DNA of 64,000 bases from Diadema setosum (lineage: Eukaryota > Echinodermata > Echinoidea > Diadematoida > Diadematidae). The notes beneath the pieces are model-generated. The model worked only from the letters and a program-made list of their open reading frames with translations. It was not told where the DNA came from and did no database searches. The DNA lies in assembly GCF_964275005.1 (NCBI RefSeq), contig NC_092696.1, positions 28,975,953 through 29,039,952 of the forward strand, given 5' to 3'. The translations under genes and the position numbers were made by a program. Below are positions 14,439-58,927 of the stretch, in pieces. The stretch's first letter is position 1. The number at the start of each line of letters is the position of its first letter.

Positions 14439-14442
14439 ACTT

Positions 14443-16321
14443 GAAGAGTTTGTTTGCAAAAACCGATAAGTCCATATTTGTCAAATGGAGATATTTGCTA
14501 CTTAAGGTCAAGAAAAATAAAGAGAATAATAAGAAAAATTTTGCTTCTTTTGACCATAACTTCAAAAATATAGAAGTATTACCTTTATATGTAGTGACCA
14601 ATGTATCATTTCTGCCCCCCCCCCCCCCCACGGAAGAAAGCAGTAACTGCATAACTGCTGAGCTGAGATAAATGCGATTTTGTGTTTTTTGCAGATTCTT
14701 TAAAAACACAGAAACATTCAAAAATAATTTTGTGGTATGATTATGCACCATACCTAGTTGTCTAACAATACCTAGGAAAAAAATATGTTTCCATTATTTT
14801 TTAAATGTTATTTAGGAAAATGCAGTTACTGCGGTGGCTCACCCTTGTTTCTGGGTAGTTTCCCCACGGAAAAAAGCAGTAACTGCAGACGGCCAGGAGT
14901 CTGCTGTTTTCCCCATGGAAAAAAGCAGTAACTGCACATGTCACATGACCATAGGAGGAGAATTGTTACCACCACCAGGTTATAAAGTTCTTCTACTTTC
15001 TGGTTAGTCTAGATCTATAAGATCTAGGACCTAACGCTAGACCTAGACTAGGTCTTGTCGATTGAATGGCATTCTGTGTAAAAATAAGGTACATGTAGGG
15101 CCTACTGTAGGCCTACCCTAATTGAACTTTGAAGTGCCCGGCCTTGCCCCTGACACATGACCCTGGACTAGACAATAAAATATCATGTCTCTTCGTCTTA
15201 GATCCTAGTCGAACTCTGACATTACACTTAAGCTAGACTACAGATCTATGCCCAATGTTAGTGCTAGACCTAGATCTATTACGTTAGATTAGGCCTACTG
15301 ACATTTGTTCTAACACTAAACAGTTAACAATAGATCTACTCTGTAACGTTAGATCTGGTACGCGGTAGACCTATAGGGCCTACATCTAACGTTAGACTAA
15401 CGTTAGTGTATTAATACTATTGCTCATCTCCATTCAATATATTTTCAGCTCACCTAGATTTTCTTGTTCTGGCCAAAGCCATGGCTACCATGACTTTTCC
15501 TCTGCAATTCATGATAGATTTACAGGCATGCCTGGACCGCAGAAACTGTGTGACAGCATGGTTAGCACTGGCATGATCACTCAGACTGTACCAGACCTGC
15601 AATACCTGGTACTGTGCAAGTGATGACAGTGATGTGATGCAGTGTTTAGCTGCTAGTTACTACTGTGCAGTATGCTGCAGAATTTACGCGCATGAAGCTA
15701 GCTGCACGCGTATTCTACACTCTGAGCGCGCTGAGTCTGCCAGGTTTGCTAGTCTCCAGAAAGAAGCTTTTTCTACAACTTGTCATGTGATTCCCTGCGG
15801 GCAGAGTCAAGTTACTGGTGAAACAATCTTTTTTATATCTACTCCCCTGAATTATGGAATAAACTGCTGTTTACATTGTTAAAAAAAAAATTAGTAGAAA
15901 AAATAAATGGTATTAGGGGAAAAAATATACAGGAAGGACTATACAGAGTCTGAATGATTAGACTAAATTGTTAGTTACTGCTTTCTTCCGTGGGTTTTGT
16001 TAGTTACTGCTTTCTTCCGTGGGGAAACTTGCAAAGTTGAATCAACTGGATGCAGTTACTGCTTTTTGCAAAAGTGAAAAATTGCATTTTTGGTCACTTT
16101 CATTTTTTTTTTGTGCAAAACTGACCTGTTAACATTGGAGAGCATTGGGTAAACTATTCATTTTTGCAAAAAAGTAAACATTCATAAAAATGTCAGTTAC
16201 TGCGTTTTTCCGTGGGGGGGCAGATTTAAAAGGTATTATTTTGTACTTTATGACAGAGACCATACTTCAAAATCTTCAAAAATGGACTTTATTAATATCG
16301 GTTTTTGCAAACAAACTCTTC
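14443..16321 (+). mobile_element. GAAGAGTTTG MITE interrupted by a CTGCCCC element
   Basis: The ends GAAGAGTTTGTTTGCAAAAA and its complement TTTTTGCAAACAAACTCTTC are flanked by ACTT on both sides, a 4-bp target duplication. Without the insert the MITE is about 263 bp, matching the uninterrupted copy at 49882..50130. Confidence 0.85.
14612..16223 (+). mobile_element. CTGCCCC element, family A, copy 1 (1612 bp)
   Basis: Begins CTG followed by a C run and CACGGAAGAAAGCAGTAACT; ends ACTGCGTTTTTCCGTGG, a G run and CAG. It is flanked by ATTT on both sides, and the uninterrupted MITE at 49882 has a single ATTT there. Subterminal GCAGTAACTGC words recur near 14640, 14878 and 14926 on the left, and inverted near 15975, 16005, 16053 and 16196 on the right. 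The core, about 15000..15420, is crowded with CTAGATCTA and AACGTTAG words. No transposase is seen. Confidence 0.85.
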
Positions 16322-16911
16322 ACTTCTCTTTTCCACAAACCTGAAAATTTTTGGCGCTGTAATTCCATCAGGCCTATGCACCTACAACAAGAGATTTCCC
16401 TTTCAGAAATAATTGTCAAATGGCAGTAGCAGTGAGGCCTACATAAATTCAAATGTGGGGGAGGGGAGGTTTACAAACAATGACTGGCGCGTACTGTATC
16501 TTGCCCCACCTCCCTTGCCCTCCTCCCCCCCCCCCCAAAAAAAAAAAATGATATAAAAAAGGCCTTAACATACAAACATGGACCCTTGACACAGGGCTAC
16601 TAGATATCTACCTTTGTAGCATTAAATACTTCTATATGCCACTGATGTACATTGTATGTTTACTTCTAAAAGCAAGCAATGATAATCTAGACCTCTGTAC
16701 TGTGAAACAAGCTTGGTAGAGATGAGTTTTTGACAGTGGTGGGCACTTCCCTATTATCAAAGGATTACCACTGAATAGGCATTTCTGAATAGGAACATTA
16801 CCCTGTATTCTTATGATAATACCATCTGATTCAGACCAATTATGGAGGACAATATCATTCAGCCAGTGGTTTTATCTTCTCAGCACAGTATAAGCAAAGT
16901 GACCTACAAGT

Positions 16912-21604: not shown

Positions 21605-49018
<27,414 letters not shown>

Positions 49019-49881
49019 TATGCTAGCTATCGGTCGACAAAACCAGGGTGCATTTCTGCACTTTAGATGTCCGGTTTGACTCCACAGCCGGTCTCTCTAA
49101 CTCCTCTCCCCTGGCCCACAGTTGAAGCTTCCCCTTTTGCGCTTGCACATCACACACACGACCCGCGAGCTCCGAGTGTAGCGAGTATCGCCGCCAGGTT
49201 ACGATGCTCCCACCCGTCGTATAGCCATTTATGGGCTAAAAACCGCAGCATATTTGAGATGATATTCCGAAAAATAATTCGTTCACATTCGTGGCACCGC
49301 CCAATCACCAAGTATAAGCCAGTTTTGCTGTTAAAACGTATTTTGGCGGTTTTTCTGTTTGGGTGAAATCTTGTTGAATTGCTGACCCGCATTGTGCTAC
49401 TTCCTCGGATCAGCAAATTTATGGTCATCGATGAACAGCTGTTGTGGACTTCGCGGCACTTTCACTTTGATAGTACTTTGAAAGATCGCGAAAATACTAA
49501 GAGGAAAATTGACAAATTCTAGGATTGAATACTAGCACGTTTTTGTTTGTTTTTCGTGTTGGAAACAAAATGTGTGATCGCATCAGAGAGAAAAGAAAAG
49601 AGGAAGCTGAAATATATAATTTTGCATAATAATAAAATATTTTTTTTCTTTTGTGTTTTTTGTAAGGAAGGACCAAAAGTTAGAAAGCTTGTACAGTGAT
49701 ATACAATATTGCATAGGCACACGTAAATTGAGAAACACAAAGAGAGGGAGAGAGGGAGGGTGCGCAAAAATAGCTGGAGTTTGGTTTGTTGTTTTTTGTT
49801 TTTGTTTTTGTTTTTACGAAAAATTGTTACAGTTGTAAAAGCAATATACTGCATTCACAGAACTTTGGTGATGTAGTATAT
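49019..49881. other. Upstream flank of the KIAA0930 gene
   Basis: The first 300 bp are GC-richer, as expected for a promoter and 5' UTR. The rest is AT-rich with GT/T runs. No other gene seen. Confidence 0.4.
49296..49310. promoter_or_regulatory. Candidate CCAAT box upstream of the KIAA0930 gene
   Basis: CCGCCCAATCA about 285 bp upstream of the start codon; NF-Y sites work in either orientation. No TATA box is seen. Motif only. Confidence 0.3.
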
Positions 49882-50130
49882 GAAGAGTTTGTTTGCAAAA
49901 ACCGATAAGTCCATTTTTGAAGATTTCGAAGTACGGTCTCTGTCATAAAGTACAAAATAATACCTTTTAAATGATATATTGGTCACTACATATATAAAGG
50001 TACATTTTTGAAGTTATGGTCAAAAGAAGCAAAAATTTTCTTATTATTCTCTTTATTTTTCTTCATCTTCAATCGCAAATATCTCCATTTGACAAATATG
50101 GACTTATCGGTTTTTGCAATCAAACTCTTC
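49882..50130 (-). mobile_element. GAAGAGTTTG MITE, uninterrupted copy, 249 bp
   Basis: The ends GAAGAGTTTGTTTGCAAAAA and TTTTTGCAATCAAACTCTTC are inverted, and flanked by ATAT on both sides. It shows the pre-insertion sequence of the family A target (TTTTAAATGATA here, complement TATCATTTAAAA). Confidence 0.85.
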
Positions 50131-50134
50131 ATAT

Positions 50135-51543: not shown

Positions 51544-53733
51544 AAAGGGGAAATCCAGTCCAAATATAAGTTAGTGTGATAAGAAAGAGTAAATATTACG
51601 AGTTCAACGGCATACATTTGACCAAAATCGAAAAAAAAAATAAGGAAGTTATGACATTTTGAAGTTTCGCTATTTTTGGGGAAAACAGTTCTTGAACTGT
51701 CAATATGAATATGCAAATGGCAAAGTGAGCATATCTTTCCCTCACAACTTACCATACGTATATAGTTTGTAGAGAAAATTTTGAAATTTTCAGTTTTTCA
51801 TTCAAACGCAATTATACCTGAGGCTCAAATCCTCGTATATCTAACTAAGACCACTATTCTGAACCAGGAATAACATGTTTCAGACTTCAGCGACAGAAAC
51901 AATGAATAATTATTCGTAATTATTTGTACACGATCAATGGGAAATTGTGAGGGTATGACATGGTTAGCTCACTCATTTGCATAATTATACCCACTGTACA
52001 GGAACTGTTTTGGAGAAATTTCTGCCCCCCACGGAAAAACGCAGTAACTGACATTTTTATGAATGTTTACTTTTTTGCAAAAATGAATAGTTTACCCAGT
52101 GCTCTCCAATGTTAACAGGTCAGTTTTGCACAAAAAAAAATGAAAGTGACCAAAAATGCAATTTTTCACTTTTGCAAAAAGCAGTAACTGCATCCAGTTG
52201 ATTCAACTTTGCAAGTTTCCCCACGGAAGAAAGCAGTAACTAACAAAGCCCACGGAAGAAAGCAGTAACTAACAATTTAGTCTAATCATTCAGACTCTGT
52301 ATAGTCCTTCCTGTATATTTTTTTCCCTAATACCATTTATTTTTTCTACTATTTTTTTTTTTTAACAATGTAAACAGCAGTTTCTTCCATGATTTAGGGG
52401 AGTAGATATAAAAAAGATTGTTTCACCAGTAACTTGACTCTGCCCGCAGGGAATCATATGACAAGTTGTAGAAAAAGCTTCTTTCTGGAGACTAGCAAAC
52501 CTGGCAGACTCAGCGCGCTCAGAGTGTAGAATACGCGTGCAGCTAGCTGCATGCGCGTAAATTCTGCAGCATACTGCACAGTAAGTGAACTAGCTAAACA
52601 CTGCATCACATCACAGTCATCACTTGCACAGTATTGTCTGGTACAGTCTGAGTGATCATGCCAGTGCTAACCATGCTGTCACACAGTTTCTGCGGTCCAG
52701 GCATCGCATGCCTGTAAATCTATCATGAATTGCAGAAGAAAAGTCATGGTAGCCATGGCTTTGGCCAGAACCAGAAAATCTAGGTGAGCTGAAAATATAT
52801 TGAAGGGAGATGAGCACTAGTATTAATACACTAACGTTAGTCTAACGTTAGATGTAGGCCCTATAGGTCTACCGCGTACCAGATCTAACGTTACAGAGTA
52901 GATCTAGGCCTATTGTTAACTGTTTAGTGTTAGATAAAATGTCAGTAGGCCTAATCTGACGTAATAGATCTAGGTCTAGCACTAACATTGGGCATAGATC
53001 TGTAGTCTAGCTTAAGTGTAATGTCAGAGTTCGACTAGGATCTAAGACGAAGAGACTTGATATTTTATTGTCTAGTCCAGGGTCATGTGTCAGGGGCAAG
53101 GCCGGGCACTTCAAAGTTCAATTAGGGTAGGCCTTATTTTTACACAGAATGCCATTCAATCGACAAGACCTAGTCTAGGTCTAGCGTTAGGTCCTAGATC
53201 TTATAGATCTAGACTAACCAGAAAGTAGAAGAACTTTATAACCTGGTGGTGGTAACAATTCTCCTCCTATGGTCATGTGACATGTGCAGTTACTGCTTTT
53301 TTCCATGGGGAAAACAGCAGACTCCTGGCCGTCTGCAGTTACTGCTTTTTTCCGTGGGGAAACTACCCAGAAACAAGGGTGAGCCACCGCAGTAACTGCA
53401 TTTTCCTAAATAACATTTAAAAAATAATGGAAACATTTTTTTTTCTAGGTATTTTTAGACAACTAGGTATGGTACATAATCATACCACAAAATTATTTTT
53501 GAATGTTTCTGTGTTTTTAAAGAATCTGCAAAAAACACAAAATCGCATTTATCTCAGCTCAGCAGTTATGCAGTTACTGCTTTCTTCCGTGGGGGGGCAG
53601 ATTATAAAAATTTCATAATTTCATAACTTCCTTATTTTTCCTCCGATTTCAGTCAAATTTTTACCGTTGAATTCGTAACATTTCACTTTTTTTTTTATCA
53701 GACTATCTTATATTTGAACTGGATTTCCTCTTT
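51544..53733. mobile_element. TTAA-flanked MITE interrupted by a CTGCCCC element
   Basis: AAAGGGGAAATCCAGTCCAA at the left and GAACTGGATTTCCTCTTT at the right start inverted arms of about 130 bp. TTAA overlaps both edges. Without the insert it is about 610 bp. Confidence 0.75.
52022..53600 (-). mobile_element. CTGCCCC element, family A, copy 2 (1579 bp, inverted)
   Basis: Reverse-complement copy of 14612..16223 over its full length, including the CTAGATCTA/AACGTTAG core (about 52820..53240). The flanks ATTT and ATTA fit a 4-bp duplication with one change. The two copies look very similar, so they are probably recent. Confidence 0.85.
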
Positions 53734-57234: not shown

Positions 57235-58927
57235 TCGTCACCTCATCTAATGAAGACCCGGGGGTACAGCAACCAGAGGGCAAACAAGAAAGTTTGTCTG
57301 ATTACCAATAATTCTTTATTCTCTTTTTTTCTCTTGTGGATATCAATAAAACAAAGGATAATTACAATCATTACATTTTGCATTCAAGGGGACAAAATCA
57401 AGTGGTTACATTACATATGCAAGATTTTTTTTTTAATTCAAAGAAATACATGTATACATAAAGTATATTTGAACTGAAAAAAAGAATAATATCGAGTGTA
57501 CATATCACGTGTGTGTATACTTACATACCTAATACATGTGCAATGTTCACGTAAATTGGAATGTACACATGATTATACGAAGATATATCATAATTTACGA
57601 ACAAGAACGGCAGAACCTTTGTACAACTTTACCACGTTTATCGAATAGAAAGTTGATTCTCTACTATTGACATTTTCTTATTTGATTTTTTCTTGTAAAT
57701 TATTTTTTTTTTGTGTGTGTAAATGATGTCCACGACGTTGCGATGTAGCCCTACATAAGTATTCATAATGATTACGTCAGTTATTAGGTAAACATTTAAT
57801 GCGACTGAGTGCTAAAGTGTGAAAACCTGTACAGAATGCCTTTTTTATCTTCCATGTACTAAAAGAATTATGAAATAGCAAAGGTAAATTAAACGCAATG
57901 TATAACTAAAAATTTTAAAATCAGATTCTCATACGAAATGTGAAACACACAAAATTGAATATCTTAAGCAGGCAAACATTTAAAACAAAAACATTTCAAT
58001 AAGAATTTTGGGAGTTATCAAAGTGACACAAACATGAGGTCATGCCTTTTCTCGCCCAGTTTGAGATATGAAATGAATAGAAAACACTTTAACAACTCCC
58101 CTACGCATGGCAGGATTTTATATATTCATTCTAAATGCTTGCCAAAAAGAACATAATGAGAAAAGAAACATGTGGGCTCCATTAAATTTGAAGACTTGAT
58201 CGCAAAACGAGTCTTTTTTTTTTTTAACCTCATTTTTAAACATTTTTATGTTAAGCCCATCATCACATAGAACAAAATAAAACCTTTCTATACTTCACTA
58301 AAATGTTCCATAACAAAGATACGATGTATTCTTAAAATCAAGAATGTTCAATAGGTTTTTATTATCTTCTGTTACTTTGCAGGAGCTTTAATCGCAAATA
58401 TCTTAAATCAACAAGAATGGAGTTAAGTCTTTTTTGCGATCAAATCCTTTATTTGTTCAAGTATTTTGTTTCTTCTTGCGAGGATAATGATTGCTAGAAA
58501 AATGTTACGATAAAGAATTGGTAAAAACAACAACAACAACAAAAACCCTGTTACTATGGTCTACAGTATGACGTCACCGTGATGATGTTACTATGGTCAA
58601 CGGTAGTGACGTCACCGTGGCGATGTTACGGTCTTGGTCAGGAACGCTTATAGTTCACTGAGATCACTTGATTTATCTGTTAATCTACGCCTAGAATGTG
58701 TGTTCAAAATTATTCAAGTGCATTTCATTGTGTCACATTGGGTAAAATGTCGAAGGGCAGTATTTCTTTTTACAATATTTTCTAAAAACTATATATATTT
58801 TTAAATCACAGACTCGTAAGAGTGAGCACACTGTCAAAAAGGGGTTTTTAGCTGGATTTCTGTATACGTGGCGTGCAGTGCGGTCAGTTTGGCATTGCCG
58901 TGCTGGTTTTACACCCGGAAGTTATCC
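57235..58927 (-). other. Probable 3' UTR and downstream flank of the tetraspanin gene
   Basis: AT-rich, no gene. AATAAA hexamers on the minus strand occur near 58448 and 57316. The CRE-containing repeat at 58549 lies within. Confidence 0.4.
58549..58626. promoter_or_regulatory. Two-unit repeat with two perfect TGACGTCA (CRE) palindromes
   Basis: Units of about 37 bp begin TGTTACTATGGTC and contain TGACGTCACCGTG. The CREs are at 58569..58576 and 58607..58614. Confidence 0.5.

Follow-up and report, generated by a model that had tools for sequence, protein, structure and literature searches.

Two non-autonomous DNA transposon families in the genome of Diadema setosum, delimited through a nested insertion in a MITE

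Background

Large MITEs and Ds-like non-autonomous elements with subterminal repeats are familiar from the Ac/Ds and CACTA systems, and subterminal repeats of the kind described below are known from CACTA elements, the termini of which begin with CAC. At the target site hAT makes 8-bp duplications, and PIF/Harbinger makes 3-bp ones (with DDE_Tnp_4 and Myb genes in its coding members). Sola elements, in the sections cited, are characterized by 4-bp duplications, very variable termini and terminal inverted repeats (TIRs) of 11-1124 bp (PMC10741241), and the excerpted account of amoebozoan Sola2 gives AWWT duplications such as ATAT, AAAT and ATTT (PMC3627910). The parts cited of a further account assign duplications of 3-5 bp to KolobokP units, describe the duplication of piggyBac and Kolobok as TTAA-specific and give the Kolobok termini as 5'-RR..YY-3' (PMC9587614), and Ginger and IS481EU are described, again in the sections cited, as ending in TG..CA (PMC10741241; PMC10045372). 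Academ has been given 3-bp duplications (PMC5199201).

Here we describe two families, E1 and E3, met in a window of 64,000 nucleotides (the whole stretch of DNA analysed; contig NC_092696.1 of RefSeq assembly GCF_964275005.1, positions 28,975,953 to 29,039,952) from the echinoid Diadema setosum, whose genome comprises 912.7 Mb in 102 contigs. We read them as two families of non-autonomous cut-and-paste DNA transposons, recently active and moved in trans by an unseen transposase. In common with Ds-like elements and large MITEs they have no coding capacity that we could see, inverted ends and many copies, and the terminal motif is repeated several times a little way inward from each end; unlike these, they have a 4-bp duplication and CTGC..GCAG ends. 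They are ordinary families of a well-known type, and we make no claim that they are unpublished.

Results and Discussion

A transposon nested in a MITE and its empty site

The exact ends of E1 are given by a nested insertion, in which a 1612-bp insert splits a 263-bp MITE (Table 1). At the matching place of an unsplit copy of the MITE, present in the same window, there is a single ATTT (the site reads TATCATTTAAAAGGTA), and this copy is a natural empty site for E1. Once the insert and one ATTT are taken out of 14442-16322, the 265 bases that are left can be aligned over their full length with 49881-50131 (reverse complement), the differences being scattered substitutions and two short indels; by BLAST the two MITE halves are 88% and 91% identical to the unsplit copy, and the homology spans the whole length. 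A preliminary description of the window had placed the split MITE with its ACTT flanks and the ATTT-flanked element, and its coordinates proved right to the base; it had also argued that the ends CTGCCCC...GGGGCAG and the 4-bp duplication can be derived from the sequence alone, which holds, and its own reservation, that the second copy might be an unrelated MITE, does not apply. The MITE family is itself dispersed: the best 40 of 467 candidate places, among them the copy in the window itself, match at 94-100%, and 38 of these 40 cover the query completely, a sample biased to unsplit copies by scoring the places best first. At 58356-58444 the window holds a sequence that is related to the MITE end but diverged from it (about 71-73% over 90 bp) and that may represent an older MITE family.

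Table 1. Positions, within the 64,000-nucleotide window, of the nested insertion, its empty site, the further E1 and E3 copies and the sites of E1.
Feature	Positions	Strand	Remarks
MITE split by E1	14443..16321	.	TIR GAAGAGTTTGTTTGCAAAAACCGATA...; ACTT duplication 14439-14442 and 16322-16325
E1 left 4-bp target duplication	14608..14611	.	ATTT
E1, non-autonomous transposon, 1612 bp	14612..16223	+	ends CTGCCCC...GGGGCAG
E1 left terminal site	14623..14651	+	CCCCACGGAAGAAAGCAGTAACTGCA
E1 left subterminal site 2	14859..14887	+	
E1 left subterminal site 3	14908..14936	+	
E1 right subterminal site 3	15968..15994	-	
E1 right subterminal site 2	15997..16023	-	
E1 right half-site	16053..16067	-	GCAGTAACTG part only
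E1 right terminal site	16190..16216	-	
E1 right 4-bp target duplication	16224..16227	.	ATTT
E3, related non-autonomous element, 2.5 kb	36401..38926	+	AAGG/TATCT form of the sites; flanks AAAT/CAGT
Unsplit MITE copy, natural empty site for E1	49882..50130	-	own duplication ATAT
Second E1 copy, 1579 bp	52022..53600	-	flanks TAAT/AAAT, an exact duplication but for one base

Dispersal, age and nested insertions

The window holds two further elements that the preliminary description did not mention, namely a second E1 copy (95% identical to E1 by BLAST of the window region against the window) and E3, which has the terminal and subterminal motifs in common with E1 and shares no long interior stretch with it (plus-strand comparison). 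A genome check for the element's ends, which the preliminary description had proposed, returned 257 matches to the left end of E1 (35-base pattern, at most 2 mismatches) against 0 for a reversed-pattern control, and a looser pattern covering the right ends of E1 and both ends of E3 returned 625 (some ends counted twice), again against 0. For E3, left ends were recovered at 99-100% identity (best 40 of 320 candidates) and right ends at 100% (best 40 of 220). The same element is found with the same ends at many places that have duplications of their own, which refutes the view of the 1612-bp insert as a product of chance, an assembly artefact or filler from break repair; we found nothing in support of that view and give it a negligible probability. 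Two E1 copies (L019 and L020), about 72 kb apart on contig C6, have identical flanks, so the surrounding DNA looks duplicated there.

Across 18 E1 copies (counting both L019 and its duplicate L020) the mean pairwise identity is 96.2%, and the same copies are 95.5-98.9% identical to their majority sequence. A young E1 subfamily, with the left end CTGCAA, reaches 98.1-99.7% (five copies compared in 10 pairs; L060, a sixth member, was excluded, its right end not having been recognised in the comparison), from which we take its movement to be recent. Ungapped comparison of E3 copies with that of the window gave 97.1-98.6% for three and 89-92% for two older ones. Judged by these identities, the movement of E1 and E3 seems to be both long-continued and recent, and, with some copies being recent, we expect a transposase source that still exists or did so until lately.

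Of the nine nested insertions recorded among 31 E1 copies, six (in L013, L015, L017, L027, L028 and L055) fall between E1 positions 896 and 1062 (window 15507-15673). That this 167-bp middle stretch, about 10% of E1, is an insertion hotspot is only a hint, since the interval was picked after the data had been seen.

Target-site duplication

Both flanks were in hand for 30 E1 copies, namely 2 in the window, 21 in L009-L028, that in L055 and 6 in L056-L061 (L014 and L018 hold two copies each, L020 was dropped as a duplicate of the L019 site, and the count excludes the eight search loci of 3 kb, L001-L008, as well as an incomplete E1 lying at the end of L028). The 16 E3 copies comprised that of the window, those of L029, L030, L031+L032, L033 and L034, and ten more. 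An exact 4-bp duplication abuts intact CTGC...GCAG ends in 17/30 E1 and 7/16 E3 copies, where a chance 4-bp match would be expected, from base composition, in about 0.5% of copies. By eye, a match at a worn end could be added for one E1 copy (L060) and for three E3 copies (L034, L039 and L045). The remaining 12 E1 and 6 E3 copies are without an exact duplication (some with worn or missing ends, others intact-looking); three of the E1 copies (the second one of the window, the first one in L018 and that in L022) miss it by a single base. These 12 and 6 copies, with the window's second E1 copy and its E3 copy among them, count against our explanation. The preliminary description had looked to a constant 4-bp duplication as support for mobility and to differing ends or missing duplications as grounds for giving up its claim: the duplication recurs at its constant length in the 17 and 7 copies above and fails to match exactly in the others, and, with so many copies sharing both the CTGC...GCAG ends and the 4-bp duplication, the grounds for giving up the claim do not apply. 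In the left ends of L039 and L045 the terminal CTG seems (by eye) to have been lost, the duplication lying directly against the C run.

Among the 26 tabulated duplications (17 of E1, 7 of E3, and those of L039 and L045), the first base is A or T in 25 and the fourth in all 26, the latter being T in 23 cases; 14 of the 17 E1 duplications begin with A. The pattern is thus mostly WNNW, in E1 mostly ANNT, and its inner positions are often G or C. None of the 26 reads TTAA, which, together with ends in CT..AG instead of RR..YY, sets both families apart from piggyBac and Kolobok in spite of a duplication of the same 4-bp length.

Ends and the seven-site layout

The terminal inverted repeats of E1 consist of 27-nt arms, 93% complementary, that lie inside its left and right C/G runs. 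In all three window elements a C run follows the terminal CTG and leads up to the terminal site, and its length varies between copies and between the ends of a single copy; later slippage at a homopolymer would account for this variation. In each of the three window elements (the two E1 copies and E3), for which the layout was tabulated, a 23-bp site occurs once per terminus and twice more 171-285 bp further inward, the inner sites being oriented as the terminal site of the same end, and a half-site lies 130-141 bp inside the right terminal site. The 23-bp site reads CCCCACGGAARAAMGCAGTAACT in E1 (one site having ATGG) and CCCCAAGGAAAAACGCAGTATCT in E3, and in the window copies GTAACT occurs in 7/7 sites of E1 and GTATCT in 7/7 sites of E3. 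With three mismatches allowed, the core of the site has 22 matches in the 64-kb window, of which 21 fall in the three elements and 1 elsewhere. Two diverged transposases of an undescribed group, with the shift in DNA-binding specificity written in all seven sites, could conceivably serve E1 and E3, which we regard as improbable.

Search for a coding partner

The longest reading frame of E1 has 101 aa, and among the 28 frames of at least 45 aa in E1 and E3 the ten longest gave no Pfam match that reached its cut-off (two weak matches stayed below it), and none of the ten resembles a transposase; a transposase split by introns is harder to see in such a frame scan. A longer element ending in the same way and carrying a transposase frame, which the preliminary description had suggested looking for, was not found either: the long copies that were read (L028, L029, L030, L031+L032, L055 and L058) are E1 or E3 with inserts and include no coding relative with these ends. 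Of the wide pairs of ends seen by coordinates, C3:3995414-4010174 lies outside this reading, as do several pairs that exceed the usual length by about 0.3-0.7 kb.

Several candidates were rejected. L028 (E1, 8.5 kb between ends) has frames for DDE_Tnp_4 and Myb-like proteins and was considered as a Harbinger-type autonomous partner; its insert breaks E1 at positions 946-950, has inverted ends of its own (by eye) and is flanked by CATGG on both sides, and we therefore take it for a nested element and not for a partner. This 6.8-kb element (L028 1228-8061) is of PIF/Harbinger type, with DDE_Tnp_4 and Myb_DNA-bind_5 frames. PIF/Harbinger was accordingly dismissed as the superfamily of E1 and E3, its genes in L028 belonging to the nested element and the duplication here being of 4 bp. 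The inserts of L029 and L030, of about 2.1 and 2.2 kb, interrupt E3 at different positions and have no stretch of more than 60 bp in common. L031+L032 (11.9 kb between ends) contains two inserts, separated by 28 bp of E3. In L055 an older E1 (90-91% ungapped identity) is interrupted by 3 kb of sequence, some of which matches repeats found in other parts of the window and in the loci. Within the E3-inserted sequence of L031 (1-198) and L032 (5375-5803) short units, ACGGTACTACC-like and TACCATGG-like, are densely repeated in tandem.

A Pfam scan of 20 of the 45 insert frames of at least 75 aa (nearly the longest) at eleven loci (L015, L017, L026, L027, L029-L033, L055 and L058; the 167-bp insert of L013 was left out) gave no match reaching the cut-off. 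Nor did Pfam match any of four window frames outside the elements, and Rfam gave 0 matches in the window at gathering scores. A third family with the same core was sought with three patterns excluding the neighbour bases of E1 and E3, which gave 2, 2 and 12 matches, and with a fourth, which gave 5; by their letters these are mostly E1/E3 variants or internal sites with an extra C, and the seven of the 21 that were read turned out to be the young E1 subfamily (six, of the 12) and the E1 copy L012 (one). These patterns would miss a partner that has the very ends of E1 or E3. The partner may be scarce, no longer present in the assembly, interrupted by introns, or E1/E3-ended and located outside the places listed or read.

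Superfamily assignment

The preliminary description had been unable to name a superfamily for these ends, and so it stands: we file E1 as a non-autonomous DNA transposon with its superfamily left open, on the grounds of a 4-bp duplication with A/T outer positions that is not TTAA, and of termini that are neither TG..CA nor RR..YY. As a lead we put forward Sola2, the best fit among the superfamily accounts compared, albeit unproven, according to which both E1 and E3 would be members of the Sola superfamily moved by a Sola2 transposase. With Sola2 and its non-autonomous derivatives they have in common the length of the duplication, its A/T outer positions (which fit AWWT), inverted termini and a compatible size range. 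On the other hand, no Sola transposase was seen, the inner positions of the duplication are not restricted to A and T as in AWWT, and the C run and the set of subterminal sites are not mentioned in the excerpted Sola2 accounts; as the likeness is to descriptions and not to terminal sequence, we hold the assignment to be tentative.

The length of the duplication does not by itself separate the candidates, and another known superfamily whose duplication can be about 4 bp long (a Chapaev-like CACTA, Academ, KolobokP, or the IS481EU or Ginger branch) could be responsible. For CACTA the subterminal repeats speak in favour, but the termini are CTGC..GCAG here and do not begin with CAC; the same termini differ from the TG..CA of Ginger and IS481EU and, being CT..AG, from the RR..YY of Kolobok (KolobokP included), and Academ differs in its 3-bp duplication. 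Taken together, we deem these superfamilies only slightly less likely than Sola2. A transposase of a superfamily not yet described, finally, would agree with ends, a C run and a seven-site layout that are unmatched in the literature searched (in a text search of the transposon literature for CTGCCCC, the only paper to contain the string among the matches listed was an E. coli resistance paper), yet such an absence weighs little with Repbase and Dfam outside the comparison, and we give this explanation a low probability.

Proposed mechanism and implications

In our view E1 is very probably a non-autonomous class II (DDE-type, cut-and-paste) DNA transposon, moved in trans, that was inserted into a copy of the MITE. 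A transposase made elsewhere would bind the 23-bp sites at the termini and further in, cut at CTGC/GCAG (presumably by DDE chemistry) and join the element to target strands staggered by 4 bp, the repair of which would leave the 4-bp, mostly WNNW duplication; one such event would have placed E1 in the MITE copy. Against this explanation stands the result that no coding element with these ends was found among the copies read.

The nested insertion yields the ends, the duplication and the empty site without any experiment, and settles how two many-copy families of this genome are to be annotated. The orphan status of E1 and E3 and their seven-site layout are what a specialist might follow up, and the layout, which both families have retained although their site sequences differ, could serve to test how transposase specificity and sites change jointly.
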